A stretch of DNA of 64,000 nt from Halosimplex salinum (GCF_003730195.1 NZ_QWGG01000012.1:1-64000); one strand, 5' to 3'; counted from the stretch's first letter, positions 42,749 through 64,000 are shown. Numbers and translations: made by a program. The notes: generated from the letters alone by a model not told the origin.

Positions 42749-44374
42749 ATGGTCACGAATTCAGGTGGGATGGACTGCCTCGTCGTCGGGCTGGACGCGG
42801 CGTGTCGGCGAGTCCTCGACCCACTGTTCGACCGGGGTGTCACACCCACGCTCGAATCGGTGTTCGAGCGCGGGACCAGTGGGCCACTCACCTCACAGAT
42901 ACCGCCGTGGACGCCGAGCGCGTGGCCCTCCCTGTTCACCGGTACCAACCCCGGGCGCCACGGCCTGTTCGACTTCCTCGCGTTCGACGGGTACGACTGG
43001 GACGTGGTCGACGGCACTCACCTCCGCGAGCGAGCGATATGGGAGTACCTCTCGGCCGCGGACCGCGAGAGCGTCGTCGTCAATGTGCCGGTGACCCACC
43101 CGCCACGGCCGTTCGATGGCGCGCTGATCCCGGGGTACACGGCCCCCGAGGACCCGCCCTGTCACCCCGATGGCCTCCTCGACGACGTGCGCGAGGCCAT
43201 CGGCGGGTATCGGGTCTACCCCGACGCCGACGGCGACGGGGCGGCGACCGACTACGCCGCCCACCGGGAAGTCGTCGAGATGCGCGGCGACGCGTTCCGA
43301 TACCTCGCTGACCGCTTCGAGCCGTCTCTCGGCTTCCTCCAGTTTCAGGTGACCGACACCGTGTTCCACCGCTACCCCGGCGAGTGGGACGCCGTCGAAG
43401 CGGTCTACGGGGCGGTCGACGCCGAACTCGACCGCATTCTCGAGGAGCTAGAGCCCGAGAACGTCCTGGTCGTCAGCGACCACGGCATGGGTGAGTACGA
43501 CGACTACGAGTTCCGCGTGAACGAGTTCCTCCGCGAGGAGGGGTACGTCGCGGCCAAGCGCGGCGGCGAGGGCATGCCGACGTGGGCGACGGTGCGAGAC
43601 AGCCGTCTGAAAGACGGCGAGACGGGCGGCCCGGATCGGGGTGCGCTCGACGACCTCGTGACCGGACTGGCCCGCGTCGGCATCACGACCCAGCGGGTCG
43701 TGCGCGCTCTCGACGCGCTGAACCTGACCGACGCGGTCGGCCGGGTCGTCCCCTCGTCGGTGGCAGAGTCGGGCGCCGAACAGGTCGACTTCCCCGCCTC
43801 GACGGCCTTCTGCCGCTCCCGGAGCGAACTCGGCATCCGGATCAACCTCGAGGGCAGGGAGCCGAACGGCCAGGTCTCCCCCGAAGCGTACGAGCACGTC
43901 CGCTCGGACCTCATCGACCTGCTCTCGGGCGTTCGGACGCCCGACGGCGATCCGGTGTTCGAGGAGGTCGCCCGGCGCGAGGCGTACTTCGAGGGGCCGG
44001 CGGCCGAGGACGCCGTCGACATCGTCCTCGTCCCGGACGGCTTCGAGCAGTTCCTCTCGGCTCGGCTCGGCGACGGGGTGTTCGGTGACCCGTCCGAACC
44101 GTGGAACCACAAGCGCGAGGGGGTCGTGGCGGCCGCGGGCCCCGGATTCGATACGGACGCCTCGCTGACGGAGGCGCACCTCTACGACGTGGCGCCGACG
44201 ATTCTGGCGCTGTTCGACCTGCCGCGGGCCGACCGGATGGACGGCGGCGTCCTCCCGATCGCGGACGCCGCCGGCGTCCGCGAGTACGACGACGTGGAAC
44301 CGGTCGACGCCACCGCGCGGGACGGGGCGGTCGAAGCACGACTCGCAGATCTGGGCTACATCGAACACACATGA
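42749..44374 (+). CDS. Alkaline-phosphatase-superfamily phosphodiesterase/transferase
   Basis: 541 residues, type I phosphodiesterase/nucleotide pyrophosphatase-like. Asp in VVGLDAACR, nucleophile region PPWTPSAWPSLFTGTNPGRHG, metal ligands in FQVTDTVFHRYP and VVSDHGMGEYDD, and a late PWNHKREG. No signal or membrane segment, so it acts in the cytoplasm. Such genes recur in haloarchaeal polysaccharide loci, where they may cleave or transfer phosphate-linked groups on nucleotide sugars or glycolipids (inference). Stop overlaps the next gene (ATGA). Confidence 0.82.
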   Translation: MVTNSGGMDCLVVGLDAACRRVLDPLFDRGVTPTLESVFERGTSGPLTSQIPPWTPSAWPSLFTGTNPGRHGLFDFLAFDGYDWDVVDGTHLRERAIWEYLSAADRESVVVNVPVTHPPRPFDGALIPGYTAPEDPPCHPDGLLDDVREAIGGYRVYPDADGDGAATDYAAHREVVEMRGDAFRYLADRFEPSLGFLQFQVTDTVFHRYPGEWDAVEAVYGAVDAELDRILEELEPENVLVVSDHGMGEYDDYEFRVNEFLREEGYVAAKRGGEGMPTWATVRDSRLKDGETGGPDRGALDDLVTGLARVGITTQRVVRALDALNLTDAVGRVVPSSVAESGAEQVDFPASTAFCRSRSELGIRINLEGREPNGQVSPEAYEHVRSDLIDLLSGVRTPDGDPVFEEVARREAYFEGPAAEDAVDIVLVPDGFEQFLSARLGDGVFGDPSEPWNHKREGVVAAAGPGFDTDASLTEAHLYDVAPTILALFDLPRADRMDGGVLPIADAAGVREYDDVEPVDATARDGAVEARLADLGYIEHT

Positions 44375-45465
44375 GCATCGAGATATCGCGACTCACGAGC
44401 GAGGCGTACGACGAGTGGGACCGGGCGGTCGAGCGGTCGCCGGAAACGACGATCTTCCACCGGTCGGAGGTGCTGGAACAGCTGGCGGAGTACACCGACG
44501 CCGAGCTTCACCTGCTCGTCGGCTACAAGGGGCAGGAGCCGGTCGGGGTCCTCCCGCTGTTCGAACTCGAGAAGGGGCCGATACGGGCGGCGTTCTCCCC
44601 TCCGCCGGCAGCGTCCGTCGAGTACCTCGGGCCGGCGCGACTCAACATGGCGAAGCTCTCCCGGCGGAAGGCCGAGCGACGCCACCAGCGGTTCCTCGAC
44701 GCCTGCTTCGAGTACGTCGACGAGACGATCAACCCCGCCATCACGCGCATCGACACCGGTCCCGACTACGACGACGTCCGACCGTTCCAGTGGGAGGGGT
44801 ACTCGGTCGTCCCCGAGTACACGTACGTCGTCGAGCTGACCGACGAAGACGACTTGCTCTCCCGGTTCAGCAGCGACGCCCGGGGGAACATCCGGGACAG
44901 TTACGACGCCGACTTCGTCATCGAGCAGGGTCGCAAGCACGCGCTGGGACTGATCGTCGACCAGGTCCAGCGCCGGTACCGCGATCAGGACCACCCGGTG
45001 ACACTCCCGTCTCCGTTCATCGAGCGGCTCTTCGAGGCGCTCTCCGCGGACGAGTTCCGTCCGTACGTCTGTCGAGTCGACGGGGAGTTCGTCGGCGGCA
45101 TCCTCGTGGTCGCGGACGGCGACACGGTGTATCGCTGGATCGGCGGCGTCCGCCCGGAGCGCGACGTCGACTTCCCGGTCAACGACCTGCTCGACTGGCG
45201 GGTCATGACCGACGCGATCGCCGACGGGCGCGAGCGGTACGACCTCGTCGGGGCGGGCGCCGAACGAGTCAACGAGTACAAGGCGAAGTTCGACCCGGAC
45301 CTGATGACGAGCTACCGAATCCACAGTAACCCGCTCCTGTTCGACGCCGTCAGCTGGGCCTACGAGCACGTCGAGCGCCGACGTATCGACCTCGTCGGCG
45401 ACGCCGGGTCGGGGCCGACCGGGCTGATCCGCAGCACCGCCGCCAACCTCCTCGACCAGAAGTGA
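44371..45465 (+). CDS. FemAB/GNAT-like acyltransferase
   Basis: 364 residues with the double GNAT layout of FemAB-related proteins: an N-terminal acyl domain (EWDRAVERSPETTIFHRSEV, GYKGQEPVGVLPLFE) and a C-terminal one (EFVGGILVVADGDTVYRWIGG, YDLVGAGAERVNEYKAKF). FemAB enzymes transfer amino acids from tRNA to cell-wall peptides; archaeal relatives sit in glycan clusters and are thought to acylate sugar amines. Translationally coupled to the preceding phosphatase-like gene. Confidence 0.82.
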   Translation: MSIEISRLTSEAYDEWDRAVERSPETTIFHRSEVLEQLAEYTDAELHLLVGYKGQEPVGVLPLFELEKGPIRAAFSPPPAASVEYLGPARLNMAKLSRRKAERRHQRFLDACFEYVDETINPAITRIDTGPDYDDVRPFQWEGYSVVPEYTYVVELTDEDDLLSRFSSDARGNIRDSYDADFVIEQGRKHALGLIVDQVQRRYRDQDHPVTLPSPFIERLFEALSADEFRPYVCRVDGEFVGGILVVADGDTVYRWIGGVRPERDVDFPVNDLLDWRVMTDAIADGRERYDLVGAGAERVNEYKAKFDPDLMTSYRIHSNPLLFDAVSWAYEHVERRRIDLVGDAGSGPTGLIRSTAANLLDQK

Positions 45466-45604: not shown

Positions 45605-46795
45605 ATGAGCATCGATCCAGTCGACGGGTCGTCGGCGGTCGTCGTCCCGGCCATCGACGCGCCGAGTAGTGTCGCCTGCGCCCGCTCGCTCGGGAAACGA
45701 GGGATACACACGGTCGTGGTCTCGGAGGACGAGGGCGCCGCCGCTTTCAGTTCCCGATACGCCGGCGAGGCCGTCGTCGTCCCGGACCCTCACGAGGACC
45801 TGGTCGCCTACAAGGACGCGCTCCGCTCGCTGGCGATGCGCCCGGACGTGCTGACGATACTCCCGGTCCGCGAGGAGGACGTGTACGTCCTCGCGCGCTA
45901 CCGCGAGGAGTTCGAACCCCACGTCGAGACGCTGTGGCCCACGCTCGACGGACTCCGCCAGGTTCAGGACCGCGTCGAACTGTTCGACGCCGCGGAGCGA
46001 GCGGGAGTCGCGGTCCCCGAGACCCGCGTCCTCGACGACGTCGACGACTGGGACCGCGAGTGGATCGTCAAGGGCCGCTACACGCTGCTGGCCGACGCCT
46101 ACCTCGACGACTACCCGCCCGAGAAGTCACGCGACCCGCCGTCGACCCAGTACCTCAACGGCGACCGGCCCGACGTCGAGACGATCCGCCGCGCGAACGG
46201 ACACACGCCGATCGTCCAGGAGTTCCTTCCCACGACCGACGAGTACGGCTTCTTCGCCCTGTACGACGAGGGCACCCCCGTCTCGACCTTCCAGCACCGG
46301 CAGATCCGGGCGTACAACTACGCGGGCGGACCGAGCGCCTACCGCGAATCGGTGTCGATCCCCGAACTCGGCGCGGCCGGTCGCGCCCTCCTCGACGAGC
46401 TCGACTGGCACGGTCTCGCGATGGTCGAGTTCCTCCGCAACGACGACACCGGCGAGTTCGAGCTGATGGAGATAAACCCGCGTCTCTGGTCCTCGCTCCC
46501 CTTCTCGGTCCGTGCTGGCGCGGACTTCCCGTACCACTACTGGCAGCTGGCCAGCGGCGAGCGCGACTCGGTCGACGACGACTACGAGGTCGGCATCGCC
46601 GGGCACCTCCTCCGCGGGGAACTCTCCTATCTGCACAGCGTACTCCTCGACGAGGAGCAACTCGTCGAGCGCCCCGACCGCCGAGAGGCGTTCACCGACG
46701 TCGTCCGCTCGTTGCGCGACCACCCCCGGTTCGATTACCTCCGGCTGGACGATCCGAAGCCGTTCGTCCGCGACGCTCTCAACACACTCACTTGA
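45605..46795 (+). CDS. ATP-grasp ligase (carboxylate-amine type)
   Basis: 396 residues. The N-terminal Rossmann-like part (VVVPAIDAPSSVACARSLGK, YAGEAVVVPDPHED) is followed by the ATP-grasp domain with WIVKGRY (ATP Lys), IVQEFLPTTDEYGFFALYD and the Mg-binding ELMEINPRLWSSLP. Such proteins join a carboxylate to an amine through an acyl-phosphate. Found often in archaeal and bacterial surface polysaccharide loci; here it may attach an amino acid or similar group to a sugar (inference). 139 bp after the FemAB-like gene. Confidence 0.83.
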   Translation: MSIDPVDGSSAVVVPAIDAPSSVACARSLGKRGIHTVVVSEDEGAAAFSSRYAGEAVVVPDPHEDLVAYKDALRSLAMRPDVLTILPVREEDVYVLARYREEFEPHVETLWPTLDGLRQVQDRVELFDAAERAGVAVPETRVLDDVDDWDREWIVKGRYTLLADAYLDDYPPEKSRDPPSTQYLNGDRPDVETIRRANGHTPIVQEFLPTTDEYGFFALYDEGTPVSTFQHRQIRAYNYAGGPSAYRESVSIPELGAAGRALLDELDWHGLAMVEFLRNDDTGEFELMEINPRLWSSLPFSVRAGADFPYHYWQLASGERDSVDDDYEVGIAGHLLRGELSYLHSVLLDEEQLVERPDRREAFTDVVRSLRDHPRFDYLRLDDPKPFVRDALNTLT

Positions 46796-46916: not shown

Positions 46917-48323
46917 TCACTTTCCGCCGACGTAGTTCTGTACCGAGTCGTACACCGGGTAGAGCCGATTGTAGACGGGATACGGTGTCGAGCGGGCGAC
47001 CGCCCGGAGCGCTCGCTGGTGGACCGGCGGCGACGACCGTTCGGCGTACGACTCGACGTCGGCGGTGCGGAACCACTCGGCGAACGCCTGGGCGCCCTCG
47101 GTCGAGAGGTCGACGTCCCCGTCGATATGGTCCTGGAGGTCCAGCCAGTACGCCTCGTGGTGGTAGTCGAGGAGCCAGTTGCCCGCCTCGATATCGGCGC
47201 GGGCCCGCTCGAACGACGACCGGTCGACGTCGAATCCGTGGTCGTTCGGGTCGACCCCGGCCAGCGCGAGCCCGAACGCCGTCCGCAGGCACTTCTCGCA
47301 GTGGTTGCAGTTACTCCCGGTCTCGGAGGCCTCGCAGGCCCGGACGGGGAGATCCGGGTCGTACTCGCGGGCGTAGTCCGCGACCACCTGCAGGCGGTCC
47401 TGCCGAGTGAGCGCGAAGGCGTCGTGGTGGGCCTGTGTCGACCCCCAGGCGACTTCGTCGTCGATGGTCGGGTCCGACCCCCACGGGATGGAGGGGCCGT
47501 CCCAGTAGTCGTACTCGTCGGGAATCGGGAACTCCTCCCAGTGGGTCGCAGTGATGTAGAGCGTCCCGTACCCCTCCGCGGCCGCCAGCGGCGCGCAGAG
47601 ACCGAGCAGGCCGAGCCCGCACCCCACCGCGCTGTACCAGCACCCGTCGTGGTAGCGCTTGTACGACGCTTCCAGCATCGCCGTGTCCAGGAACTCCAGC
47701 ATGTTCGACCGAACGAACTGCGTCTCGGCGCCGAACCGGTCGGCGTACCCGTCGATCCGGGACTTCGTGTGGGCCCATCGCTCGTCGTCGTCGATGCCGA
47801 CGAGCCACCCCTGGATGTTGATCAGTGTGGGGTCCTCGTCGCGATGGCGGACGTACGCCGACAGGGAGTCGACACCGCCGGTGAACAGCAGCCCGGTCCC
47901 CTCGGCGTCGGACTCGTCGCCGTCCCACTCGGCCGCCTCTTCGACGACCACGCGACCGCCCTGCATGAACGGGTACATCTCGTGGAGCGCGCTCCCGACC
48001 GCCTCCAGCGACTCGAGGAAGCGACGGTCGACGACCGGGGCGTAGACGTCCGCGCCAGCCGCCCAGGCGACGGGACACACCTGTGCGAGGACCGGAATCG
48101 TCAGGATCGACTCGGGGACGTCGGACACGTCCACGTCGTACTCGACGTAGAAGGGCGACTCGTCGAAGAAGGGACTGAGATCCTTGCTGTAATCGATCGT
48201 GCACTCGACGGTAGTCCCGGTCGCCCTGACGTCGGTCACTTCGACTGTCCCGGCCGAACGCGAGTCGGTGTCGGCCACGTCCTCGCCGCTCGTCGCTCGG
48301 AGCCGTCCAACAGAGGAGTTCAT
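46917..48323 (-). CDS. QueC-like PP-loop protein, paralogue 1
   Basis: 468 residues. An N-terminal beta-rich domain (about 25-125) precedes a PP-loop ATPase domain: LLFTGGVDSLSAYVRH with TGGVDS at 148-153 (SGGxDS class). At the C-terminal side Cys330, Cys339, Cys342 and Cys345 (C-x8-C-x2-C-x2-C) followed by LRTAFGLALAGVDP match the zinc site and following helix of QueC. QueC adenylates a carboxyl group and converts it to amide and nitrile. No queD, queE or tgtA lies nearby, so the substrate is probably a glycan-locus metabolite (inference). Its closest relative is the gene at 50085-51530. Confidence 0.8.
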   Translation of the reverse strand: MNSSVGRLRATSGEDVADTDSRSAGTVEVTDVRATGTTVECTIDYSKDLSPFFDESPFYVEYDVDVSDVPESILTIPVLAQVCPVAWAAGADVYAPVVDRRFLESLEAVGSALHEMYPFMQGGRVVVEEAAEWDGDESDAEGTGLLFTGGVDSLSAYVRHRDEDPTLINIQGWLVGIDDDERWAHTKSRIDGYADRFGAETQFVRSNMLEFLDTAMLEASYKRYHDGCWYSAVGCGLGLLGLCAPLAAAEGYGTLYITATHWEEFPIPDEYDYWDGPSIPWGSDPTIDDEVAWGSTQAHHDAFALTRQDRLQVVADYAREYDPDLPVRACEASETGSNCNHCEKCLRTAFGLALAGVDPNDHGFDVDRSSFERARADIEAGNWLLDYHHEAYWLDLQDHIDGDVDLSTEGAQAFAEWFRTADVESYAERSSPPVHQRALRAVARSTPYPVYNRLYPVYDSVQNYVGGK

Positions 48324-48712
48324 GTGCGTTGATCCCGCCGAGCCGTCTAAACTATAGACAGGCTATGGATCCGCGGAGTGACCTAATCTGTCGGTTCGAT
48401 AGACGGGAGCGTTCGCGGTCGGACCCGCTCGGCTCGGCGTGACGTGTCTGTCGGACACGTCGAGTGGTTTCGCCCGCTCGCTCTCGCAGTCGGACCGTTC
48501 CAGTCCCCCCGTGTCCGTTCCGACTCATCGCCGTCCGCCAGTCGGGGCCGTCGGCGGGCGTGGCCGGGGCGTCGGCGACGGCGAGGGCGACGCGACCGAA
48601 GTCGGGGCACCGACCGTCCGCGACGCTCGGTCGCGGTAGGACTCGATTTCTCTCGCGGCCGTCGAACGGTATACACCGAGTTACAGAGAGGGCACGGGCG
48701 GTATCGCCGCCG
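48324..48712. promoter_or_regulatory. Divergent promoter region; otherwise empty 389 bp
   Basis: On the minus strand CTATAGTTTAGACGGC begins 34 bases before the paralogue 1 start. The paralogue 2 gene has CCATAACTTAGCCGGG at 35 bases before its start, so the two promoters share sequence and spacing. The rest of the interval, up to the aminotransferase-like gene, has no gene or motif that I can support. Confidence 0.5.
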
Positions 48713-49816
48713 ATGATACCGGAGCGTCCGTCGCCGATCCGGTGGCTACTCCCCTCCGGGTCGGTCGGCGTCGAATCCCTCTTCGACCGGCACGCGGCGT
48801 ATCGGTTCTACGGCTACGGCAAGGGCGCGCTCGGAGACGCGCTCGCCCCGTTCGTCGGGCGTGGCGAGACGGCGCTGCTCCCGGCGTATCTGCCGGACGC
48901 GGTCGCGGAACCGTTCGCCGACGTCGGTTTCGACGCCGAGTACTACGCGGTTACGGACCGGCTCCGACCGGACTTCGACGACCTCGCCGACCGGTGCGAC
49001 GAGGGGACGGGCGTGATCGTCGCGGTCAACTACTTCGGATTTCCGACCGGGGACCACTCCCGGGTCGGTCGGCTGGCCGAGCGACACGACTGTCTCCACG
49101 TCGACAACAGCTCGCACTCGGCCTTCTCGGTCGTCGACGGCGAACTGCTGGGGAGTCGCGGCGACGTGGGGTTCGCGAGTCTCCGAAAGTTCCTGCCGAT
49201 TCCCGACGGCGCGGTGCTGTTCTTCGACGACGCGCTGGCCGACGCGGTCGTCCCGTCGGGCCACGCCGGGCGCCGTGAGGGATTCACCGGCGACGACGTG
49301 CAGTATCTCGTATCGTCGGCGGTGAGAGACGCGCTGCACCGACGCGAGGGGCTTCGGCGACCGGTCGAGCGCGCGGTCTCGGCCGGGTCCGGGAGCGTCG
49401 CGAGCCCCCGGGAGCGCTACGAGGCGTCGAAGGTCCCGATGTCTCGGCTGTCGAGTGCCGTCGTCGCGCGGACGGACCCGACGGCGGTGCGGGCCCAGCG
49501 GCGAGAGAACTACCTCGCGTGGGACCGCGGTCTCGCCGATCGTCCCGGGCTGGAACCGGTGTTCGACGAACTGCCGCCGGGTGTCTGCCCGCAGGTCTAC
49601 CCCGTGCGCGCGACCGTGCCCCGGCGGTTCCTCGGGGCGCTGCGGGACGCCGGTGTCGTCGGCGCGGACACCTGGCCCCGTCTCCCGACGTCGGTCAGCG
49701 CCGCGCCCGAGTACGCCAGTGCGCGCCGCCTCGCGGACGAGTTGATCACCCTCCCCGTCCACCAGCAGGTCGGGCCCGCGGACGTCGAGGACGTCTGCCG
49801 CCGACTCGACCGGTGA
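48713..49816 (+). CDS. DegT/DnrJ/EryC1-type PLP-dependent aminotransferase-like protein
   Basis: 367 residues, type I PLP fold. HVDNSSHSAF holds the Asp that pairs with the pyridine nitrogen (about 131), and FASLRKFLPIPDGAVLFF holds the PLP lysine at about 159. FLPIPDG after the lysine is typical of a divergent DegT branch found in capsule and lipid-glycan clusters. It would transaminate a keto-sugar or a related substrate, though the branch is not well characterised. The start at 48713 was chosen because the upstream extension is arginine/proline-rich. Confidence 0.8.
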   Translation: MIPERPSPIRWLLPSGSVGVESLFDRHAAYRFYGYGKGALGDALAPFVGRGETALLPAYLPDAVAEPFADVGFDAEYYAVTDRLRPDFDDLADRCDEGTGVIVAVNYFGFPTGDHSRVGRLAERHDCLHVDNSSHSAFSVVDGELLGSRGDVGFASLRKFLPIPDGAVLFFDDALADAVVPSGHAGRREGFTGDDVQYLVSSAVRDALHRREGLRRPVERAVSAGSGSVASPRERYEASKVPMSRLSSAVVARTDPTAVRAQRRENYLAWDRGLADRPGLEPVFDELPPGVCPQVYPVRATVPRRFLGALRDAGVVGADTWPRLPTSVSAAPEYASARRLADELITLPVHQQVGPADVEDVCRRLDR

Positions 49817-49912
49817 GCGGTAGTGGCCGGTCGGTAGCGGGGTTCGAATCGACTGCATACCGCGTCGAAAACGGCTCATTACCATGTCCGATTCCCTCCT
49901 CCGTGGAACTGT

Positions 49913-49997
49913 GCCGAGGTAGTCTAGCCAGGCCAAGACGGTTGCTTCGAACGCAACTGTCCGAGAGGACTCGGACGTTCAAATCGTCCCCTCGGCG
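49913..49997 (+). tRNA. tRNA-Ser (anticodon CGA)
   Basis: 85 nt. Acceptor GCCGAGG (49913-49919) pairs with CCTCGGC (49990-49996), discriminator G at 49997. Anticodon stem GTTGC/GCAAC with loop TTCGAAC gives anticodon CGA (49948-49950), reading UCG. The long variable arm has a GTCC-GAGA-GGAC hairpin, typical of serine tRNA. T arm GGACG-TTCAAAT-CGTCC. CCA is not encoded. It lies between the aminotransferase-like gene and the second PP-loop gene. Confidence 0.95.
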
Positions 49998-50084
49998 TTT
50001 CTCACCCCGGCGGTTCGACCGCCGCACCGACCCGAACCCCCCAGTCCCGACCGTCGGCCGACGTAACGACCGGCTCGGTTTCTG

Positions 50085-51530
50085 TCACTTCCCGCCCAGC
50101 GCGTCGAGCGAACGGGAGAGGACCGCGTACGCGGGCAGCGGCACGGCGCGGGCGACCGTCCGAACCGCGCGGTCCCGGACCGGCGAACCCGCTACGGCAT
50201 CGAGGTCGGCCGCCCGCAGCCACTGACGGAACGGCTCACTCCCCTCGACGGGGAGGTCGGTGTCCGCGTCGAGTCGGTCGCGTAGCTCTCGCCAGTACTC
50301 CGCGTGGTGGCGGTCGGGCAGCCACTCGCCCGTCTCGAAGCGTTCGCGGGCGAACTCGAACGCCGCGGGGTCCAGCGGCAGTTCGTGGCGGGCCGGGTCG
50401 CGGCCGGCGAGAGCGAGTCCGAGAGCGGTCCGGAAGCAGTTCTCACAGCGGTTGCAGTTGCGTCGCCTCTCCGACTCCTCGCAGGCCCACACCGGCAGGT
50501 CGGGGTGTTCGTCGGCGAGGAACTCCGCGACGAGTTCGACTCGTTCCTGGCGCGTGAGCTCGAACCCGTCGTGGCAGACGGTCGTGCCCCCCCAGCGAAC
50601 CGCCTCGTCGATGTCGGGGTGTGACCCCCACGGCATCCCGCGTCCCTCCCAGTGGTCCAGCCCTGCGGGCGTCGGGAACCCCTCCCAGTGGCGCGCGCCG
50701 ATGTACAGCGTCCCGATGTCCTCGGCGACCGTCAGCGGAGCCACCAGCCCGAGGAAGCCGAGTCCGTCGCCGACGGCGCTGTACCAGCCGCCGTCGTGCT
50801 CGTCGGTGAAGCGGATACTCAGCAGTCTGGAGTCGACGACCTCGAGGAGATTCGTCTCGACGAACTGGGCGTCGACGCCGAATCGCTCGGCGTACTCCCG
50901 GACGTTCCCGCGCCACTGCGCCCAGCGGCGGTCCTCCCCGGGACCGACGTGCCAGGCCCGCGTCGCGATCAGCGTCGGCCGTTCCTCGCGGTGGCGCACG
51001 TACGGCGACAGCGAGTTGATCCCGCCCGTGAACAGCAGCCCCGCTCCGTCGGCGACGCCGGGCCGCTGGTCGCCCGCGGCCGTCGGGTCGTCGTCGGCGC
51101 CCTCGGATGTGACCGCGCTCCCGTCGCGTGGTTCCGGTGCCGACTCGGCCACCACGCGGCCGCCCTGCATGAACGGGTACATCTCACAGAGCGTGCGGCC
51201 CACGCGCTCCAGTGAGTCGAGGAACCGTCTGTCGACTTCCGGGACGTGGACGTCCGCGCCGACCGCCCACGCGACGGGACACATCTGCGCGAGCACGGGG
51301 ATGGACAGGATCGACCTCGGAAGCTCGGACACGTCGACGTCGTACTCGGCGTAGAACGACGACGCGTCGAAGAACGGGGCGAGGTCGTCGCTGCACTCGA
51401 CGGTCGACTCTATCCGGGTGCCGTCGGCGGTGACGTCGGTGATCTCGACTGTCTTTCGGTCCTGGTCGGTATCGTCGCTCCTCGTCGGGGAGCCGACGGT
51501 CGCGGCGTCGTGGAGACGAACTGGTGCCAT
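50085..51530 (-). CDS. QueC-like PP-loop protein, paralogue 2, altered PP-loop
   Basis: 481 residues, clearly homologous along its whole length to the protein at 46917-48323 (shared YAEYDVDVS, IPVLAQ-CPVAWA-GADV, EMYPFMQGGRVV, GWYSAVG-GLG-LGL-APL). The PP-loop reads LLFTGGINSLSPYVRH, with Asn172 where paralogue 1 has Asp152, a residue conserved in SGGxDS motifs. The four cysteines of the QueC-like zinc site remain (ACEESERRRNCNRCENC). It may be catalytically weak, or a partner subunit of paralogue 1 (inference). An acidic insert of about 20 residues precedes the loop. Confidence 0.8.
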   Translation of the reverse strand: MAPVRLHDAATVGSPTRSDDTDQDRKTVEITDVTADGTRIESTVECSDDLAPFFDASSFYAEYDVDVSELPRSILSIPVLAQMCPVAWAVGADVHVPEVDRRFLDSLERVGRTLCEMYPFMQGGRVVAESAPEPRDGSAVTSEGADDDPTAAGDQRPGVADGAGLLFTGGINSLSPYVRHREERPTLIATRAWHVGPGEDRRWAQWRGNVREYAERFGVDAQFVETNLLEVVDSRLLSIRFTDEHDGGWYSAVGDGLGFLGLVAPLTVAEDIGTLYIGARHWEGFPTPAGLDHWEGRGMPWGSHPDIDEAVRWGGTTVCHDGFELTRQERVELVAEFLADEHPDLPVWACEESERRRNCNRCENCFRTALGLALAGRDPARHELPLDPAAFEFARERFETGEWLPDRHHAEYWRELRDRLDADTDLPVEGSEPFRQWLRAADLDAVAGSPVRDRAVRTVARAVPLPAYAVLSRSLDALGGK

Positions 51531-51770: not shown

Positions 51771-52997
51771 CTACGCGGACACCGGCGCCGCTCGTGGCTG
51801 TCGAACTCGCTGGTCGAACAGCACCCGCTCGTGTTCGGCCACGACGGCGTCCCAGTCGTAGGCGCCGGCGGTGTCCCGGGCCGCGCGTCTGAGCGCCCGG
51901 GTGTCGACGTCGCCCTCGGCGCAGGCGTCGAACACGTCGAGCAGGCCGTCGACGCTCCCGTCGTAGAGGAGGCCGTTCCGCCCGTCGTCGACGAGTCGGC
52001 GGTGGGCCGGGATGTCGGTGGCGACGACGAGCGACCCGGCGGCCATGTACTCGAGGATCTTCGCCGGGAAGCTGATCCGGTAGGACTCGATGTCGTGGAG
52101 CGGGGAGATGGCCAGGTCCGAGCGCGCGATCACCGACGGGACCGCCTCGTGGGAGACGATCCCGAGCCACTCGACCCGGTCCTCGATACCGAGTTCGCGG
52201 GTCAGCTCCCGGAGTTCGGCCATGTAGCGGTCCCTGCCGCCGCCGGCGACGTGGAACTCGACGTCGCGGTCGGTCTCGGCGACCGCTTCGAGGACGTGTT
52301 CGAGTCCGCGGGGCTCCCCGATGGACCCGACGTAGGTCACCACCCAGGTGTCGTCCGGGCCGGTGGCGCGGTCTCGGTCGGTGTCGACGGCGAACCGGTC
52401 GACGTCGACGCCCATCCCGATGACGCGGGCGTCCGAGAGGTCGATCCCGTACTCCTGTTCGGTCACGTCGCGGATGCCCTCGGTCAGGCAGATAACCTCC
52501 GCGCGCCAGTCGAGCAGGTGGCCGACGACCCACGCGTACGTCGACTTCAGTTCGACCAGGATCCGCTTGCGGACGCTCATTCGCTCGTGGGCGGCGCCGG
52601 CGAGGTCGCGCTTCTGTCTCACCGGGACCGACTGCAGGCCGACGACGAACCGAGCGAGCGCGGCGGAGGCGGCGACCCGTCCCTGGACGATCGTCCGCTG
52701 GAAGGCGTAGACGGCGTCGTAGCGGTACACCGCGCCGAGGACGCCCGCGTACAGCGTCGAGAGGACGAGAAACAGGAGGCCGGAGAGGACCGGGATCTGT
52801 CCGGTGGCGACGGCGTGACGCTCGACGCTCTCGGGGAACTGGTTCTCGTCGTCGTCGCCGAGTCGGGCCCGACAGACGACGTGGACGGTGTGTGACTCCG
52901 AGAGCTCTCTGGCCAGGTAGTGCGGGACCGTCGCGCTGAACGGCGAGGAGATGTCGCGGTGGTGAACCAGCAGTACCGAGCGGCTGTCACCACTCAT
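51771..52997 (-). CDS. Glycosyltransferase family 4
   Basis: 408 residues, GT-B fold. The N-terminal acceptor domain includes a hydrophobic segment (VLSGLLFLVLSTLYAGVLGAV) that may touch the membrane. The C-terminal donor domain has VVTYVGSIGEPRGLEHVLEA, FHVAGGGRDRYMAEL, ISPLHDIESYRISFPAKILEYMA (EX7E-like region with Glu in ILEYMAAG) and VATDIPAHRRLVDDGRNGLL. Probably adds a sugar to a lipid-linked glycan. First of three minus-strand genes upstream of PP-loop paralogue 2 in the direction of transcription. Confidence 0.87.
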   Translation of the reverse strand: MSGDSRSVLLVHHRDISSPFSATVPHYLARELSESHTVHVVCRARLGDDDENQFPESVERHAVATGQIPVLSGLLFLVLSTLYAGVLGAVYRYDAVYAFQRTIVQGRVAASAALARFVVGLQSVPVRQKRDLAGAAHERMSVRKRILVELKSTYAWVVGHLLDWRAEVICLTEGIRDVTEQEYGIDLSDARVIGMGVDVDRFAVDTDRDRATGPDDTWVVTYVGSIGEPRGLEHVLEAVAETDRDVEFHVAGGGRDRYMAELRELTRELGIEDRVEWLGIVSHEAVPSVIARSDLAISPLHDIESYRISFPAKILEYMAAGSLVVATDIPAHRRLVDDGRNGLLYDGSVDGLLDVFDACAEGDVDTRALRRAARDTAGAYDWDAVVAEHERVLFDQRVRQPRAAPVSA

Positions 52998-53217: not shown

Positions 53218-54477
53218 TCAGTCGTCGGTGGGGTGGCTCCGGTCCGCGCGCTCGACGTGCTCGCGCGTCGGAGCGAGGTCTTCGACCTCGTCGTCCTCGT
53301 ACACCGCGAGGAGTTTCTCGCGCTGAGCGGCCCAGTTGTACCGCTCGAGCGCGGCGCGGTGGCCGTTCCGGCCGAGTTCGGCTCGCCGGTCCGGGTCGTC
53401 GATCAGGTCGACGATCGTGTCGGTGACGGCTGCGGGGTCCTCGGGTTCGACCGGGACGCCACAGCCCTCGGCCGTGACCAGTTTCCCCCAGTTGCCGATG
53501 TCGGAGACGACCACCGGGAGGCCGGCGGACATGTACTGAAATATCTTGTTCGAGCGGTGGACCGCGTCGGTCTTGTTCGGCGCGGGGTGGAAACACATCG
53601 CCCCGAGGTCGGCGTCCCTGAAGTGCTCGATCATCCCTTCGAGCGAGGGGAACCACTCGACGAACTCGGCGCGCTCGACGGCCTCGATCCGCGGTTCGAT
53701 CCGCTCGCGGGCCGCGTCGGAGTCGTACTTGCCGCCGATGGAGAGCTCCACGTCGTAGTCGTCGGGTATCTGTTCGACCGCGTCGAGCAGCGTGAGGATC
53801 CCCCGGTCTTCGGAGAGCAGCCCTCGATAGACGATCCGCGTGGGGCCGTCGCCGGGCGTGATGTGTTCGTCCGGGTTCGTCCCTTCGGCCCAGCGCCGCC
53901 GCGGGTAGTTCGTGACGACGGTCGGGTCGGCCACGTCCTCGAATCGCTCGGCCACGTCCGGCGAGGCCGCGACGACCTCGTCGACGAACCGCGTGAGCGT
54001 CCGCTCGACGACGGAGGCGGCGGTGGCGACGAGCGGCCGGAGCGGCGCCGGGAAGATCGGTTTGTGCCTGAGCGTCGCCTCCACGTTCTCGTGGACGTCG
54101 TAGACGACGGTGCCGTCGGTGCGGGCTCCGAGCAGTACGCCCGCGGGGAGCGCTTCGACGTCGTGGAAGTGGTAGACGTCGTAGTCCGTGTTCCAGAGGG
54201 CGGCGGTGACGCGCGCTGCCTCGGCGATTCGAGTCCCGATCGACGGGATCGCTCCCTCTTCGGCGTCGTCGTAGGAGACGACGCCCACGGGGCCGTCACC
54301 CTCGAAGGGCGTGTAGTAGGTCACGTCGTGGCCGGCGTCGTCGAGCGAGGCGACCTCCCGCTCGACGACGCGCGAGTCGGTCGTGTCGTGCGCTGTCGTG
54401 AACACGCAGACCCGCTTTCCGTCGGACTCCTCGGGCTGGTGCGTCTGCACAACCCCTGTCTCGTGCGTCTGTGCCAT
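53218..54477 (-). CDS. Glycosyltransferase family 4
   Basis: 419 residues, GT-B fold: N-terminal VCVFTTAHDTTDSRVVERE and YDVYHFHDVEALPAGVLLGA (acceptor side), then RIVYRGLLSEDRGILTLLDA, ELSIGGKYDSDA, and the donor-site SNKIFQYMSAGLPVVVSDIG. This is the branch often paired with nucleotide-sugar dehydrogenase genes in exopolysaccharide loci. No membrane anchor. Separated by about 117 bp from the dehydrogenase gene and 220 bp from the next glycosyltransferase, same strand. Confidence 0.88.
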   Translation of the reverse strand: MAQTHETGVVQTHQPEESDGKRVCVFTTAHDTTDSRVVEREVASLDDAGHDVTYYTPFEGDGPVGVVSYDDAEEGAIPSIGTRIAEAARVTAALWNTDYDVYHFHDVEALPAGVLLGARTDGTVVYDVHENVEATLRHKPIFPAPLRPLVATAASVVERTLTRFVDEVVAASPDVAERFEDVADPTVVTNYPRRRWAEGTNPDEHITPGDGPTRIVYRGLLSEDRGILTLLDAVEQIPDDYDVELSIGGKYDSDAARERIEPRIEAVERAEFVEWFPSLEGMIEHFRDADLGAMCFHPAPNKTDAVHRSNKIFQYMSAGLPVVVSDIGNWGKLVTAEGCGVPVEPEDPAAVTDTIVDLIDDPDRRAELGRNGHRAALERYNWAAQREKLLAVYEDDEVEDLAPTREHVERADRSHPTDD

Positions 54478-54594: not shown

Positions 54595-55890
54595 TTACCA
54601 GCTGACCGAGTGGTACTCGGGCACCTCGTCTTCGAGTTCGCGGACGGTCCCGATCGGGTCGCAGACGGGGGTGTCGTCGAGGCGCGCGACGAGCTCCGGT
54701 CGCTCGCAGTCGTTCGTGAACACGATCACGTCGACGCCGTCGACGAACGCGTCGGGGTCGTCCTCGAGCTGGGCCGCGAGGTCGTCCGTCGTCCGGTCGA
54801 GGTACTCGCGGTTCGCACCGACCGCGTCGGAGGGGTCGATGTCGTCGGCGTAGAAGCGGACCTCCGTGTCGAGCGCCCGGGCGAGGCGGAGACCGGGGCT
54901 GTTGCGCGTGTCGGCCGTGTCGGACTTGAACGCGATGCCGACGACGCCGACCGTCGTGGGGTCGAGCGACTCGATGCGCTCGCGCACCCGGTCGATGTGG
55001 TGCTCGTTGCTCTCGGGGATGCTCGACAGCAGCGGCGCCGACACGCCGCTGTCCTCGGCGATGGTCGCGATGGCCCGCGAGTCCTTCGGCAGACACGACC
55101 CGCCGAAGGCGAAGCCGGGGTCGAGGTACTGCGCGGAGACGTTGAGCTTCTCGTCGGCCTGGACGAGGTCCATGAGTCCCCGCCCGTCGACGCCCGCGGC
55201 CGAGGCGATGCTCCCCACCTCGTTGGCGAAACAGATCTTCATCGCGTGGAAGGCGTTGTTGACCATCTTCAGGGCCTCGGCCTGCTCGGGCGCGACGACC
55301 CGGACGTCCGCGTCGACCTCGAGCGTCCGGTAGAGGTCGAGGACCGTCCCCGCGTCGTCGTCCTCGAAGCTCCCGACGACGACGTACGGCGGGTCGAAGA
55401 AGTCCGACATGGCCGTCCCCTCGCGCAGGAACTCCGGGTTCACCGCGAAGTCGACCGTCGTGTCCGCGGCGGTCTTCTCCGCGAGGTAGTCACGCAGGTT
55501 CCGGGTCGTCCCCGGCGGGACCGTGCTTCGCACGACGATGGTGTGGCTCCCCTTCTCGTCGATCGGGTCCGCGACCGAGTCGAGCACGTTGTACAGGTTC
55601 GTCGTGCTCAACTGACCGGTGTCGTCGAGCGGCGTCCCGACGGTCAGGAAGGAGATCTCCGTCTCCGCGACCGCCTCCGCCGCGTCAGTCGTCGCGGAGA
55701 CGCGCCCCGAGTCCGCGCCCGCCTCGATGGCCGACCCGACGCCCGTCTCCTCCACTGGCGACTCGCCGCGGTTCACCGTCTTGACCTTCTCCGGGTTCAC
55801 GTCGACGCCGACGACCTCGTGGTCGTGGCGTGCCAGACAGGCAGTCATCACACAGCCCACGTAGCCGAGACCGAACACTGAGACCTTCAT
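54595..55890 (-). CDS. Nucleotide-sugar dehydrogenase, GDP-mannose 6-dehydrogenase (AlgD)-like
   Basis: 431 residues. It oxidises the C6 of a nucleotide sugar to a uronic acid with two NAD. Motifs: VFGLGYVGCVMTACLA (NAD), STVPPGTT, NPEFLREGTA, the substrate-site NNAFHAMKICFANE, and catalytic Cys266 in FAFGGSCLPKD. The FANE and GGSCLPKD words and the C-terminal Trp resemble GDP-mannose dehydrogenase of alginate synthesis more than UDP-glucose dehydrogenase (AglM type), but both are possible. It defines the locus as uronate-using. Confidence 0.85.
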   Translation of the reverse strand: MKVSVFGLGYVGCVMTACLARHDHEVVGVDVNPEKVKTVNRGESPVEETGVGSAIEAGADSGRVSATTDAAEAVAETEISFLTVGTPLDDTGQLSTTNLYNVLDSVADPIDEKGSHTIVVRSTVPPGTTRNLRDYLAEKTAADTTVDFAVNPEFLREGTAMSDFFDPPYVVVGSFEDDDAGTVLDLYRTLEVDADVRVVAPEQAEALKMVNNAFHAMKICFANEVGSIASAAGVDGRGLMDLVQADEKLNVSAQYLDPGFAFGGSCLPKDSRAIATIAEDSGVSAPLLSSIPESNEHHIDRVRERIESLDPTTVGVVGIAFKSDTADTRNSPGLRLARALDTEVRFYADDIDPSDAVGANREYLDRTTDDLAAQLEDDPDAFVDGVDVIVFTNDCERPELVARLDDTPVCDPIGTVRELEDEVPEYHSVSW

Positions 55891-56164: not shown

Positions 56165-57682
56165 ATGCCTTCCGACGAGCAGTCACGACGAAAATTCCTC
56201 AGGGGAACGGCCCTCACAGCGCTAGGGGCCGGTGTCGCTGGGTGTCAGTCGGACGACGTCGAAGAGACGACACGGCCGCCGACTGAAACGTCGGAACCGA
56301 CCGATACCGCGACGCCCACGTCCGCGCCGAGCGCGACGCCGACGTCCACGGCGACCGCGACGCCGGTCCCGGAGATCGTCGAACGGTACGGGGACCGGTT
56401 CGGGTCGATCGTCGACCTCGCCGACGAGGGGGCCGACCTCGACGGAGCGGAACCGATCGACGACCTGGTCACCGACGCGATAGCCGACGACACCCTGCTC
56501 TACTTCCCGACCGGTCGGTACTCGATGGGGTCTCTCGACCTCGAGGGATACTCGAACTTCGGGTTCGTCTCGCTGCCGGAGGACGACACCGTGATCACCC
56601 CGGCAATACCCGGCAAGGAGATGGACCACCTCGTCCGTTTCAGAGATGCGTCGGATCTGCTCCTCGAAGGGCTGGACCTCGACTACACGGAACGGGGGTA
56701 CGGCGCGGTGATCCGGCTGCTGGCCCACGGCGACTTCGTCGCCAGGGACCTCCGGATCCACGGGAAGCTCCCGGACTGGAACAGAGAGAACAAACACGTC
56801 GGCTTTCGGTTCGACGTGCGCGACGAGTCCAGCGAGGGGCTCGTAGAGCGGGTGATCGCCCGCGACGGCGGGCACGAAGGCGGGAACGGTGTCGGCATCT
56901 TCGTCGGCAAGGAACACGCCGGCACGCTGACGTTTCGCGACTGCGAGATAGCGAACTTCCCGAACAACGGACTGTACGCCTCCTCGCCGGGTCGCGACAC
57001 GGTCGGCTACCGTGGTTCCAACGGGGTCGTCCACGTCCGTGGCGGGGAGTTCGTGAACAACAATATCGCGAACGTCCGCATCGGTTCGACCGGCTCGACG
57101 GTCAAGAACGTGACCGTCCGCGTCGACAAGGTGCCCCCGAGCCCCACGGAGCGCACCCTGAACGTCCGGGGGATCCGACTGCGCGCACGGGGCAACCAGC
57201 TGGTCGAGAACTGCACGATCGAGATCGGCGAGAACGCCGGTATGGGGTTCGGCGCGATCTCCTATCACCCGGAGCACGGCTCGTCGACGATCCGCGACAC
57301 GGAGATCAGCGTCGACTGCGACGGGTTCGACGCGATCGACGCGACCGACTCGAGCAACGGCGGGACGGAGGAGCCGCTCCTGTTCGACAACGTGACGATC
57401 ACCGGGAAGGCCACGGGCGGCGCGGCCGCCGACATCGCCGACCGTCACGGGACGAAGTTCCGGAACTGTCGGATCGAACAGTCCGGGTCCGACAGAGAGG
57501 GGATCGTCTTCACCGACTCGGAGGACTGCCTGGTCGCCGACTCGACGATCCGGGTGACCGGTCAGGCGATCAGGACGCACAACGCCAGCGTCGATCGGGT
57601 CAACCTCACCATCGAGAACCCTTTCGACGCCGAGGACGCGAGGTCCCCCGCCCCGCCGGACCGATACGACCCCCCAGACTGA
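56165..57682 (+). CDS. Tat-exported lipoprotein with right-handed beta-helix
   Basis: 505 residues. Twin-arginine signal QSRRKFLRG (Arg8-Arg9) and lipobox VAGC with Cys27; a Thr/Pro linker to about residue 65. The rest is a right-handed parallel beta-helix: repeated coils such as LEGLDLDYTERGYGAVI, FRDCEIANFPNNGLY, VENCTIEIGENAGMGF, FRNCRIEQSGSDREGIVF. Similar folds occur in polysaccharide lyases and uronate epimerases; I see no assignable active site. It would sit on the outer cell surface. Divergent from the dehydrogenase gene. Confidence 0.85.
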   Translation: MPSDEQSRRKFLRGTALTALGAGVAGCQSDDVEETTRPPTETSEPTDTATPTSAPSATPTSTATATPVPEIVERYGDRFGSIVDLADEGADLDGAEPIDDLVTDAIADDTLLYFPTGRYSMGSLDLEGYSNFGFVSLPEDDTVITPAIPGKEMDHLVRFRDASDLLLEGLDLDYTERGYGAVIRLLAHGDFVARDLRIHGKLPDWNRENKHVGFRFDVRDESSEGLVERVIARDGGHEGGNGVGIFVGKEHAGTLTFRDCEIANFPNNGLYASSPGRDTVGYRGSNGVVHVRGGEFVNNNIANVRIGSTGSTVKNVTVRVDKVPPSPTERTLNVRGIRLRARGNQLVENCTIEIGENAGMGFGAISYHPEHGSSTIRDTEISVDCDGFDAIDATDSSNGGTEEPLLFDNVTITGKATGGAAADIADRHGTKFRNCRIEQSGSDREGIVFTDSEDCLVADSTIRVTGQAIRTHNASVDRVNLTIENPFDAEDARSPAPPDRYDPPD

Positions 57683-57940
57683 GTCGCCGCCGATCCGGCC
57701 CGAAACCGGTCGTAAGGTACGCTTACTCGCGGTAGTCGACGAGAAACGAGCCATTACTGGCGGACGTTCAGCGGTTCCACGACGGCGTGCGTTCGGCGTG
57801 CAGGTGGCGCGCGCCTCCGGTACAGCAGGCGGCAACTGACGAGTAAGCGTGGCCGACCTCGCAGTACGACGCAACTAACCGGGGAGCATCCACAGCAAAT
57901 CCCGCACAAACCGCCGTAATCGGGTATCTCACCTGCAAGT

Positions 57941-57974
57941 AGCCTTATAGCGGTAGATATGGCTTAACCGGGAT
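57941..57974 (+). promoter_or_regulatory. Promoter shared by the two paralogous beta-helix genes
   Basis: AGCCTTA starts 34 bases and TGGCTTA 15 bases before the ATG at 57975. The paralogue at 60341 has the same two words at exactly the same distances (60307 and 60326). The first fits a TATA-box position for a leaderless mRNA; the second could be a regulator site. Confidence 0.6.
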
Positions 57975-59999: not shown

Positions 60000-60340
60000 C
60001 GCGAGGTCTCGCTTCCGAGACTCGTCACACTGTCTGACATGCACGCCGCGTTTCGGTTCGTGACCTTTCTTTCTCTCGCGCACGCGTAGTAAGACCGGGT
60101 TTCCGTCCCCGATCCGCGAGTTTCTCGCCCCTACTCGCCGGTCACTGTCCGCGGTTTCCACGCCGTCGACTCGGGCGCGCTCCCCGCTCCGCGGCCGCGT
60201 TGAGTAGGACCTTCCTACGGAACGACTGGACAACACGCAACCAAACGCCGGCATCCGGTTGGCAAGGCGCGAGGGAACGCCGCCACCCCGCATCGCAGCG
60301 GCAGATAGCCTTAATTCGGAAGCACTGGCTTACCGCGAGT
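60000..60340 (+). other. 341-bp gap with promoter of the second paralogue
   Basis: No gene. AGCCTTA (60307) and TGGCTTA (60326) before the ATG at 60341 repeat the upstream arrangement of the gene at 57975. An in-frame extension of the next gene to 60200 lacks similarity to its paralogue and was not used. Confidence 0.6.
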
Positions 60341-61890: not shown

Positions 61891-63207
61891 TCAGAGGTAT
61901 CCGAGCTCTTCGAGGCGACTGGTCATCCGCTCTTCGGCCTCGGCGGAGATGTCGTCGCCGTCGGTCCGCCCCTCGCGAGCGACGTGCTCGTCGACCATCC
62001 CCTCCAGACGCTCGACCACGTCGGGGTGGTCGTCGATCACGTTGTGTAACTCCTCGGGGTCGGCTTCGAGGTCGAACAGCTGTCGCAGGTTCCGGTCGCG
62101 CCCCTTCACGAACTTCCAGCCGTCGTAGCGGACGCCGTCGAGCCATCGACCCCGGTCCTGTTCGGAGCCGACGCCGCGGAGGTACGCGGGACGGTGTTCG
62201 ATGGGACCGTCGAGGAGGTCCTGCCCGGACACGTCGTCGGAGGCGTCGAGACCGGCGGCAGACAGGAGGGTCGGGAAGACGTCGACCTGTCTGACCTGGT
62301 CGCCGACGCGCCGCCCCGCGGGCACGCCGGGGCCGGCGAGGACGAACGGCACTCGCGTCAGGAAGTCGTAGACGTGGTAGCTGTGGCCGACGCGGTGGAA
62401 GGCGTTCGGGAAGTCGACGGCGCTGAAGCGGCGCAGGGAGTTGTAGTAGTCCTCGAGCTCGATCCCTCTCGGTTCGAGATACCGGTCGTAAACGTCCTTT
62501 CGGACGTGCCTGGTTCGCTTGCCGGTGAGGGGGATCGGGACCTGGTTGAACCCGACCACGGACGCGCGGTGGCGGAGGGTCCCGTCGTGGATGCTCTCGC
62601 CGTGGTCGCCGGTCACCGCGACGACGGTCTCAGAGAGGTCGAGGATCTCGAGCAGTTCCTCGAGTTTCTCGGCGACGCCGCGGACGCTCGCGTCGTACTC
62701 GATCTCGTCGTCGGTCGCGTCCGGCGGGAGGTCGCGGTGGACGTGGGCCTCCCAGAGGTGGAGGTACTGGAACCACGGCTCGTCGCTGTCCGCGACGTCG
62801 CGCTTGAACTCCTCGAACCAGTCGGTGTACACGGTCTCGTCGCGCCGCCGGTAGTCGTAGCTGTCGAAGCCGGTGTCGAGGCCGGTGTCGGCGGTGATGG
62901 GGCCGGTCACGTCGGCGCGGGTCGCGTAGCCGGCGGCGTCGAACACCTCGGCGAGCGTCTCGGTCTCGCGGTCGAGCGTGAAGTCGCGCAGGGAGAGGAC
63001 GCCGTGGTCGGGCGGGTAAGTGCCGGTCATGTAGCTCGCGACGCAGGGCGTCGTCGACGAGGCCGCCGCGACCGTCGTGTCGAAGACGGTGCCCTCCCGC
63101 TCGAAGAACTCGAAGAAGGGTTTCTCGCTGCCGTACTCCCCCAGCGCGAAGTCGCTGCGCAGTGCGTCGATGCAGACGAACAGCACGTTGGGGCGGTCTG
63201 TCGCCAT
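61891..63207 (-). CDS. Sulfatase-family hydrolase/transferase
   Basis: 438 residues of the alkaline phosphatase/sulfatase fold. PNVLFVCIDALRSD has the N-terminal metal Asp and VAVTGDHGESIHDG the second metal site. The nucleophile region reads SSTTPCVASYMTG, without the C/S-x-P-x-R motif that makes formylglycine, so it is probably not a sulfatase but a phosphodiesterase or phospho-group transferase. No signal peptide, so cytoplasmic unless exported otherwise. Convergent with the beta-helix gene; common in haloarchaeal glycan loci. Confidence 0.82.
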   Translation of the reverse strand: MATDRPNVLFVCIDALRSDFALGEYGSEKPFFEFFEREGTVFDTTVAAASSTTPCVASYMTGTYPPDHGVLSLRDFTLDRETETLAEVFDAAGYATRADVTGPITADTGLDTGFDSYDYRRRDETVYTDWFEEFKRDVADSDEPWFQYLHLWEAHVHRDLPPDATDDEIEYDASVRGVAEKLEELLEILDLSETVVAVTGDHGESIHDGTLRHRASVVGFNQVPIPLTGKRTRHVRKDVYDRYLEPRGIELEDYYNSLRRFSAVDFPNAFHRVGHSYHVYDFLTRVPFVLAGPGVPAGRRVGDQVRQVDVFPTLLSAAGLDASDDVSGQDLLDGPIEHRPAYLRGVGSEQDRGRWLDGVRYDGWKFVKGRDRNLRQLFDLEADPEELHNVIDDHPDVVERLEGMVDEHVAREGRTDGDDISAEAEERMTSRLEELGYL

Positions 63208-63485: not shown

Positions 63486-64000
63486 ATGAATCTGAGAGAC
63501 TCGGTCCTCAAACTGTTCTCGGGGAGTATCGTTCTCGCGCTCATCGAGTTCGGTGCGATCGCCGGCTTCACGCAGGCGCTCGGCGCGGGCGCGATGGGCT
63601 CCTTTTTCGTCTTCCAGGCGGTCGTGGGGATGCTCGGCATCCCGATCGACGTGGGGATCTCCAAGGCCACCGAGAAACAGCTCTCCGCGGACGAACCGCA
63701 CGGGGAGGTGATGACCACCGCCGCCCTCGTCAAGGTGGTACTCTTGCTCCCGTGGGTGGTCGCCCTGTTCCTTGCCGCGCCGTACGTCGAGCAGTACGTC
63801 GGCGTCGACGGTGTCGTCCCGCTCGTCGTCCTCGGACTGCTGGTCGCACAGGGGCGCGGGCTGTCGCTCCGCCTGCTCGCGGGACAGCTCCGGGTCGACC
63901 AGAACGCGCTGCTGAAAGTGATCGGCAAGGTCACCTGGGTGGTCAGCGGGGCCGTCCTGATCTCCCTCGGGTGGGGCGCGATGGCGATCATCGCGGCGTT
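63486..64000 (+). CDS. Polysaccharide flippase (Wzx/MATE-like), 5' part
   Basis: Truncated by the window end after about 171 codons. Starts MNLRDSVLKLFSGSIVLALI and shows successive membrane segments: FGAIAGFTQALGAGAMGSFF, VVLLLPWVVALFLAAPYV, VPLVVLGLLVAQGRGLSLRL, VSGAVLISLGWGAMAIIAA. The amphipathic N-terminus and glycine-rich second helix are typical of oligosaccharide flippases that move lipid-linked glycans across the membrane. It probably serves the locus to its left. Confidence 0.82.
   Translation, partial: MNLRDSVLKLFSGSIVLALIEFGAIAGFTQALGAGAMGSFFVFQAVVGMLGIPIDVGISKATEKQLSADEPHGEVMTTAALVKVVLLLPWVVALFLAAPYVEQYVGVDGVVPLVVLGLLVAQGRGLSLRLLAGQLRVDQNALLKVIGKVTWVVSGAVLISLGWGAMAIIAA

Follow-up and report, generated by a model that had tools for sequence, protein, structure and literature searches.

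Why should a gene cluster for surface sugars in a haloarchaeon contain two genes that resemble queC? The stretch of DNA analysed here (the window; 64,000 nucleotides of Halosimplex salinum, GCF_003730195.1 NZ_QWGG01000012.1:1-64000) comes from a Halosimplex-like haloarchaeon and carries, inside such a cluster, two paralogues designated QCL1 and QCL2. The QueC-family fold is known from tRNA modification and virus defence; QueC itself uses ATP to activate a carboxyl group, which is converted through an amide to a nitrile. From sequence and modelling evidence we tentatively propose, with somewhat less than even confidence, that QCL1 and QCL2 represent an undescribed QueC/QatC-like branch acting in the making of surface glycans, where it would activate a carboxylate on a glycan or glycan precursor and turn it into an amide.

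The initial annotation had described two open reading frames (ORFs) with a TGGxxS PP-loop and a C-x8-C-x2-C-x2-C cysteine set, and both were located as described, with coding-like codon usage and products that are 54% identical over ~470 aa. In QCL1, an N-terminal α/β domain (residues ~26–135) is followed by the QueC-like PP-loop core and a helical C-terminal extension; the PP-loop reads TGGVDS (residues 148–153), and Cys330/339/342/345 lie in the segment CEASETGSNCNHCEKC, directly before LRTAFGLALAG. The equivalent segment of QCL2, CEESERRRNCNRCENC, has CENC where QCL1 has CEKC, keeps the same spacing and runs into FRTALGLALAG; the LRTAxGLALAG sequence attributed to both proteins is therefore present in QCL1 and altered in QCL2. 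The QCL2 PP-loop is TGGINS, the only instance among members with a readable loop in which Asn replaces the Asp, and because this Asp is missing the two paralogues are not equivalent. The PP-loop glycines and the four cysteines are invariant in alignments that span haloarchaea to Bacillota, including one of 21 relatives with as little as 28% identity, and in a longer list almost all full-length homologues, the most divergent included, show a readable Cys4 set; conservation of this kind means that the motifs did not arise by chance.

Direct searches with QCL1 and QCL2 gave no match to Pfam (PF06508 included; E 0.1), to NCBIfam or to any PADLOC model, and their best PHROGs match, the QueC-like phrog_1550, reached only E 0.17. 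The PADLOC QueC model did not match QCL1, and the PADLOC QatC model did not match QCL1, QCL2 or three other members of the family; PF06508 matches other members only below its gathering cut-off, and sequence searches of the PDB returned sub-threshold matches only. Profile–profile comparison (hhalign), with a QCL profile built from 24 diverse members, gave 96.8% probability (E 2e-10) against the QueC alignment and 94% (E 1e-7) against the QatC alignment, the known pair QatC and QueC scoring 99% as a yardstick. With the AlphaFold model of QCL1 (predicted local distance difference test, pLDDT, 83.9; predicted template modelling score, pTM, 0.84) as query, the best Foldseek matches were the QatC structures 9y01 and 9y02 (430 columns; E 5e-5 and 1e-4), followed by QueC 3bl5 (probability 1.0; template modelling score, TM, 0.60 by target) and, lower in the list, Cap9 9nto (probability 0.77); the superposition of full-length QatC is loose (TM 0.36), and the profile and fold relationships alike rest on low sequence identity (12–14%). 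The asserted homology to QueC is borne out by both approaches, as is homology to QatC. On this evidence QCL1 and QCL2 are placed in a branch of their own within the QueC/QatC-like PP-loop superfamily, with confidence as regards the PP-loop core: that core and a Cys4 site in QueC order are found by profile, model and alignment, QCL2 deviating in its PP-loop. Alignment of the zinc motif and the fold match suggest that the putative zinc-binding cysteines are clustered.

The N-terminal domain, rightly noted at the outset as absent from canonical QueC, comprises ~130 aa and is confidently modelled in isolation (pLDDT 85.7); the isolated model had no significant match in the PDB, QatC included, and hhalign gave no profile match of the domain to QatC. 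An N-terminal extension common to QCL and QatC, hinted at by the full-length Foldseek alignment, was considered and is confirmed by neither of these comparisons.

A joint alignment of QueC, QatC and QCL pairs the Cys4 sites of all three families and reveals a common conserved Lys (K in QueC, TK in QatC, TRxEK in QCL), which in QCL1 itself is Arg (TRQDR). The substrate loop reads YPDCRP in QueC, TRTxHP in QatC and xWGS(H/D/R)P in QCL. In QueC and Cap9 the 7-deazaguanine base is recognised by the Tyr and Asp of this loop, in whose place QatC has Thr (PMC13279940); QCL has neither the Tyr and Asp nor the QatC-type Thr (TRT). Where QueC has the Arg of VPxRN, which is essential there (R99A is inactive; PMC13329287), QCL has a Gly-rich (H/C)GLGLxG stretch; QatC retains an Arg at the aligned position, and adenine is contacted in QatC by R233 (PMC13279940). 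GWxV stands in QCL where QueC has YxQxHxxE, and none of the canonical QueC motifs YxQxHxxE, VPxRN and YPDC (PMC13329287) is retained. Since the PP-loop, zinc cysteines and Lys are shared and the recognition residues are replaced, the alignment suggests that the PP-loop and putative metal site have been kept and the substrate pocket rebuilt; 7-deazaguanine is an unlikely substrate.

QCL was found in 103 of the 391 sampled Halobacteria genomes, about a quarter, most of them in one family, probably the Natrialbaceae of the plasmid matches. Its bacterial distribution is patchy, including plasmids of Priestia (as a tandem pair), Pseudobutyrivibrio, Azospirillum, Gloeothece, Nostoc and Gemmobacter, as well as an uncultured Bacilli genome and five others among 392 sampled in that phylum; some IMG/VR contigs carry it, and the phage records searched gave no match. 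Plasmid-borne copies are annotated "hypothetical protein". In a tree whose long branches leave the deeper placements unsure, the genes of the Halosimplex locus form one clade, with duplication having taken place within Halosimplex, and the pair in Priestia goes back to a different duplication; tandem pairs therefore arose at least twice. This recurrence hints at hetero-oligomers, against which must be weighed that the Asp-to-Asn change of QCL2 is private to this genome; QCL2 is probably a weakened or accessory paralogue and may be a helper subunit. Two irregular cases were also seen. In Priestia megaterium S1, QCL sequence makes up the 2633-bp record pS3 and a truncated copy stands at the edge of pS2 (L102, L103), possibly representing a recombination circle between tandem copies or an assembly artefact. 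A divergent copy (L095; G071, contig C2), in which the frame is interrupted by a stop and neither the PP-loop nor the Cys motif can be read, is probably a decayed gene.

The polysaccharide-locus setting noted for the Halosimplex pair is met repeatedly in both archaea and bacteria: relatives lie mostly in surface-polysaccharide loci, among them loci on the annotated plasmids of haloarchaea, Priestia, Pseudobutyrivibrio, Gloeothece, Nostoc and Gemmobacter. When 39 haloarchaeal QCL regions (within 9 kb) were compared with 19 controls, each taken from one of a subset of these genomes at a distance of 300 kb or more, the families most often near QCL were polysaccharide deacetylase (19/39 versus 0/19, p 7e-5) and the phosphatase-like PF01663 (19/39 versus 1/19, p 8e-4), figures that are non-independent and p-values that are optimistic because the loci in Natrialbaceae largely descend from a single one. 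Gfo/Idh proteins and a DUF6541-like membrane protein were each near QCL in 16 of the 39 regions, and an uncharacterised 313-aa protein in 15, all three being absent from the controls. Natrialbaceae loci such as L070, L098, L100 and L190 have beside QCL a conserved gene block that encodes a deacetylase, a Gfo/Idh oxidoreductase, a DUF362 protein and an epimerase, together with the 313-aa and DUF6541-like proteins. The general link to uronate dehydrogenase, ATP-grasp and FemAB-like genes expected from the window was not borne out in the form proposed: ATP-grasp was near QCL in 7/39 regions (p ~0.05) and UGDH in 6/39 (p ~0.08), against 0/19 controls for each. As a family-wide signature this gene set is weakened, being conserved within Halosimplex and rare elsewhere.

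In bacteria the strongest partner of QCL is the polysaccharide pyruvyl transferase family (PF04230), a gene for which is adjacent or one gene off in 10 of the ~20 non-haloarchaeal loci. It directly adjoins QCL in Priestia, Azospirillum, Gloeothece, the Bacilli genome, G701, G1009, G983 and the IMG/VR contig L113, and lies one gene away in Gemmobacter and Pseudobutyrivibrio; in the uncultured Bacilli genome and G1009 it is fused to GT2, and in G701 and G1009 the adjoining copy is the sole one found in the genome. The Azospirillum pair stands outside any glycan cluster.

If QCL does act on glycan carboxylates, it would, like QueC, adenylate a carboxylate with ATP (yielding AMP and PPi), and a nitrogen nucleophile would attack the activated group to give an amide. 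The carboxylate would belong to a glycan or its precursor: in the Halosimplex locus, which has a UDP-sugar dehydrogenase, a uronic acid, and in bacteria with an adjoining pyruvyl-transferase-family gene possibly a pyruvate ketal. Onward conversion of the amide to a nitrile is conceivable, though speculative. Formation of a uronamide by a PP-loop ATPase has a precedent in AsnB-type WbpS, from a different family (PMC7468200). The wider idea, that nucleobase synthesis and protein deazaguanylation are joined by QCL as a third role for which the QueC fold was domesticated, with QCL activating glycan carboxylates, being paired with pyruvyl-transferase-family genes in bacteria or with nucleotide-sugar and deacetylation genes in haloarchaea, and making amide-linked or even nitrile-bearing sugars unseen so far in archaeal surface glycans, is rather doubtful as a whole.

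Several points weigh against an amide-forming role. The role is putative, and a glycan context does not prove that a glycan is the substrate. The Arg of VPxRN, essential in QueC, is not conserved, and ATP binding must therefore be rearranged, so that adenylation is not guaranteed. About half of the non-haloarchaeal loci (Nostoc and several IMG/VR contigs among them) have no adjacent PF04230 gene, and PF04230 is absent from the haloarchaeal QCL regions; with UGDH near QCL in so few of the latter, there is therefore no carboxylate source common to all loci. Shared inheritance of the Natrialbaceae loci also makes the enrichment counts non-independent.

The main rival makes QCL a ligase that joins a carboxylate to an amino compound or a protein N-terminus, as Cap9 does; we judge it rather unlikely. 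QatC is the closest full-length fold, Cap9 links a carboxylate to an N-terminal glycine (PMC13279940), and several QCL genes have deacetylase (a source of free amines), ATP-grasp and GNAT/FemAB-like genes in their vicinity, yet no QatB-like partner gene is conserved across QCL loci and the N-terminal domain alone is not recognisable as the QatC extension. Other PP-loop chemistry on glycans, either formation of an amidine on an N-acetyl sugar or insertion of sulfur, seems improbable: although WbpG is an O-antigen PP-loop enzyme placed in the QueC superfamily, QCL matches no NCBIfam model, WbpG-type included, its Cys spacing is that of the QueC zinc site rather than CxxC(x)6CxC (PMC13329287 for both WbpG statements), and the listed loci have no annotated ammonia donor of the HisF/HisH type. 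Loss of the PP-loop Asp in QCL2, disappearance of the VPxRN Arg throughout the family and the independent tandem pairs of Halosimplex and Priestia would fit a mainly structural or regulatory pseudo-enzyme of a glycan assembly complex, but every other full-length member whose PP-loop can be read has the Asp, and nearly all members, the most divergent included, retain the Cys4 site; we consider this reading distinctly improbable.

Already disfavoured, and very improbable, is an anti-phage (Qat-type) or deazaguanine function for QCL, its place in a polysaccharide locus being accidental. QCL shares the QueC-family fold, with QatC as its closest full-length structure, but the PADLOC models miss it, it lacks the TRT and YPDC recognition motifs, and searches of 68 QCL-bearing loci with QueC, QueE and QatC queries (tblastn for queE) gave no real match, the lone QueE match being a generic radical-SAM gene. 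Annotation shows neither que nor tgt genes next to QCL homologues (queD being judged from annotated loci only), and no qatA, qatB or qatD in the listed loci. The same genome holds a regular QueC beside QueE on another contig (L058, contig C26) and a separate QatC-type protein (L059:601-2064, contig C23; PADLOC QatC model, E 7e-30). The initial claim that no other deazaguanine genes are present thus stands for the locus and its 68 homologues, QueC and QueE lying elsewhere in the genome, and the homologues do not keep company with queC or queE. An archaeosine role was rejected because the genome has its own queE-queC pair and QCL lacks YPDC and VPxRN; a Qat role, or one in the cyclic-oligonucleotide-based anti-phage signalling system (CBASS), was rejected on the evidence of profile hidden Markov models (HMMs), motifs and neighbourhoods. 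Matches to the QatC model occur in 3 of 295 sampled genomes of the phylum to which this genome belongs.

The genes around QCL1 and QCL2 are listed below. The uronate-forming dehydrogenase and the ATP-grasp gene of the initial annotation were recovered by HMM; the FemAB-like gene was recognised by eye. Gene order is broadly conserved in Halosimplex (nucleotide-sugar dehydrogenase, GT4, optionally a second GT4, QCL, optionally a second QCL, ATP-grasp), and ATP-grasp orthologues that are 83–86% identical adjoin QCL in three species of the genus. In sister species the paralogues are tandem and the aminotransferase-like ORF does not lie between them; here they are separated by that gene and the tRNA gene. 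Beside the glycan genes, three consecutive right-handed beta-helix proteins are encoded on the + strand (56165-61771), two of which give weak matches to twin-arginine translocation (TAT) signals.

Features of the QCL locus in the window (GT4, glycosyltransferase family 4)
Feature	Position	Strand	Remarks
Phosphodiesterase/alkaline-phosphatase superfamily protein (PF01663)	42749..44374	+	HMM
FemAB/GNAT-like acyl or aminoacyl transferase	~44371..45465	+	By eye; start estimated
ATP-grasp ligase (PylC/carbamoyl-phosphate-synthase-like)	45605..46795	+	HMM; convergent with QCL1
QCL1	46917..48323	-	468 aa; intact open frame
DegT/DnrJ-type aminotransferase-like ORF	48464..49816	+	Between QCL1 and QCL2; true start probably near 48730
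tRNA-Ser(CGA)	49912..49998	+	Between aminotransferase-like gene and QCL2
QCL2	50085..51530	-	481 aa; intact paralogue of QCL1
GT4 glycosyltransferase	51771..52997	-	Adjoins QCL2 on the same strand; synteny kept in Halosimplex relatives
GT4 glycosyltransferase	53218..54477	-	HMM
Nucleotide-sugar (UDP-glucose/GDP-mannose type) dehydrogenase	54595..55890	-	HMM
Sulfatase-family protein	61891..63207	-	HMM; same polysaccharide locus
Polysaccharide flippase, start	63486..63998	+	Continues past the window as L076:487-1911

The July 2026 survey of PF06508 maps QueC, QatC, LarE, WbpG, GMP synthase and Cap9, and WbpG is the sole glycan branch that it describes (PMC13329287). QCL probably lies outside the network of that survey, because it falls below the PF06508 cut-off. 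The open-access literature held nothing relevant on QCL, on DUF6395 or on a QueC-like protein next to a pyruvyl transferase. The QCL branch spans several bacterial phyla besides the sampled Halobacteria; its genomic context is clear and the chemistry proposed for it can be tested, and the QueC fold has probably been recruited to glycan modification too. If glycan carboxylates are indeed its substrates, QCL would put a name to an enzyme that modifies archaeal surface glycans by amide-type chemistry, and a family-wide question would arise as to the ligand of the xWGSxP pocket.

Among known systems, QatC of the qatABCD defence system (PDB 9Y01/9Y02, 9VLK/9VLL) resembles QCL in length and layout (N-terminal extension, QueC core, C-terminal helices), in its PP-loop and Cys4 site, and in the HP after the substrate loop and the conserved Lys (TK/TRxEK), which align; QCL differs in having xWG for TRT and C-x8-C where the QatC spacing is longer and variable, in having neither a PADLOC QatC match nor qatABD neighbours, and in an N-terminal domain that is not demonstrably homologous. 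QueC (PF06508 cluster 1) shares the PP-loop core fold, SGGxDS and C-x8-C-x2-C-x2-C, whereas QCL scores below the PF06508 cut-off, has lost the three canonical motifs, adds ~130 N-terminal residues and a C-terminal helical extension, and occupies glycan rather than que neighbourhoods. Cap9 of type IV CBASS has the QueC-family core, but in a minimal form of ~185 aa that keeps the nucleobase motif and lies beside a CD-NTase. DUF6395 (PF19932) has a PP-loop (SGGVDS) and a C-terminal Cys cluster, and its profile matches that of QCL weakly (91%, E 9e-7); although remotely related to QCL, it forms an uncharacterised Pfam family of its own whose N-terminal half differs, and PF19932 matches neither QCL1 nor QCL2, the best score of a distant QCL (22.7 bits, E 1e-4) lying under its 25-bit gathering score. 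A DUF6395 gene (L072:20555-21871) is found on a Priestia plasmid that also carries a QCL pair. WbpS (AsnB-type, PGN_1234) of P. gingivalis belongs to the asparagine-synthase family, whose Asn_synthase model (PF00733) QCL1 and QCL2 do not match, but it resembles the proposed QCL enzyme in being a PP-loop ATPase that converts a uronic acid to a uronamide (PMC7468200).

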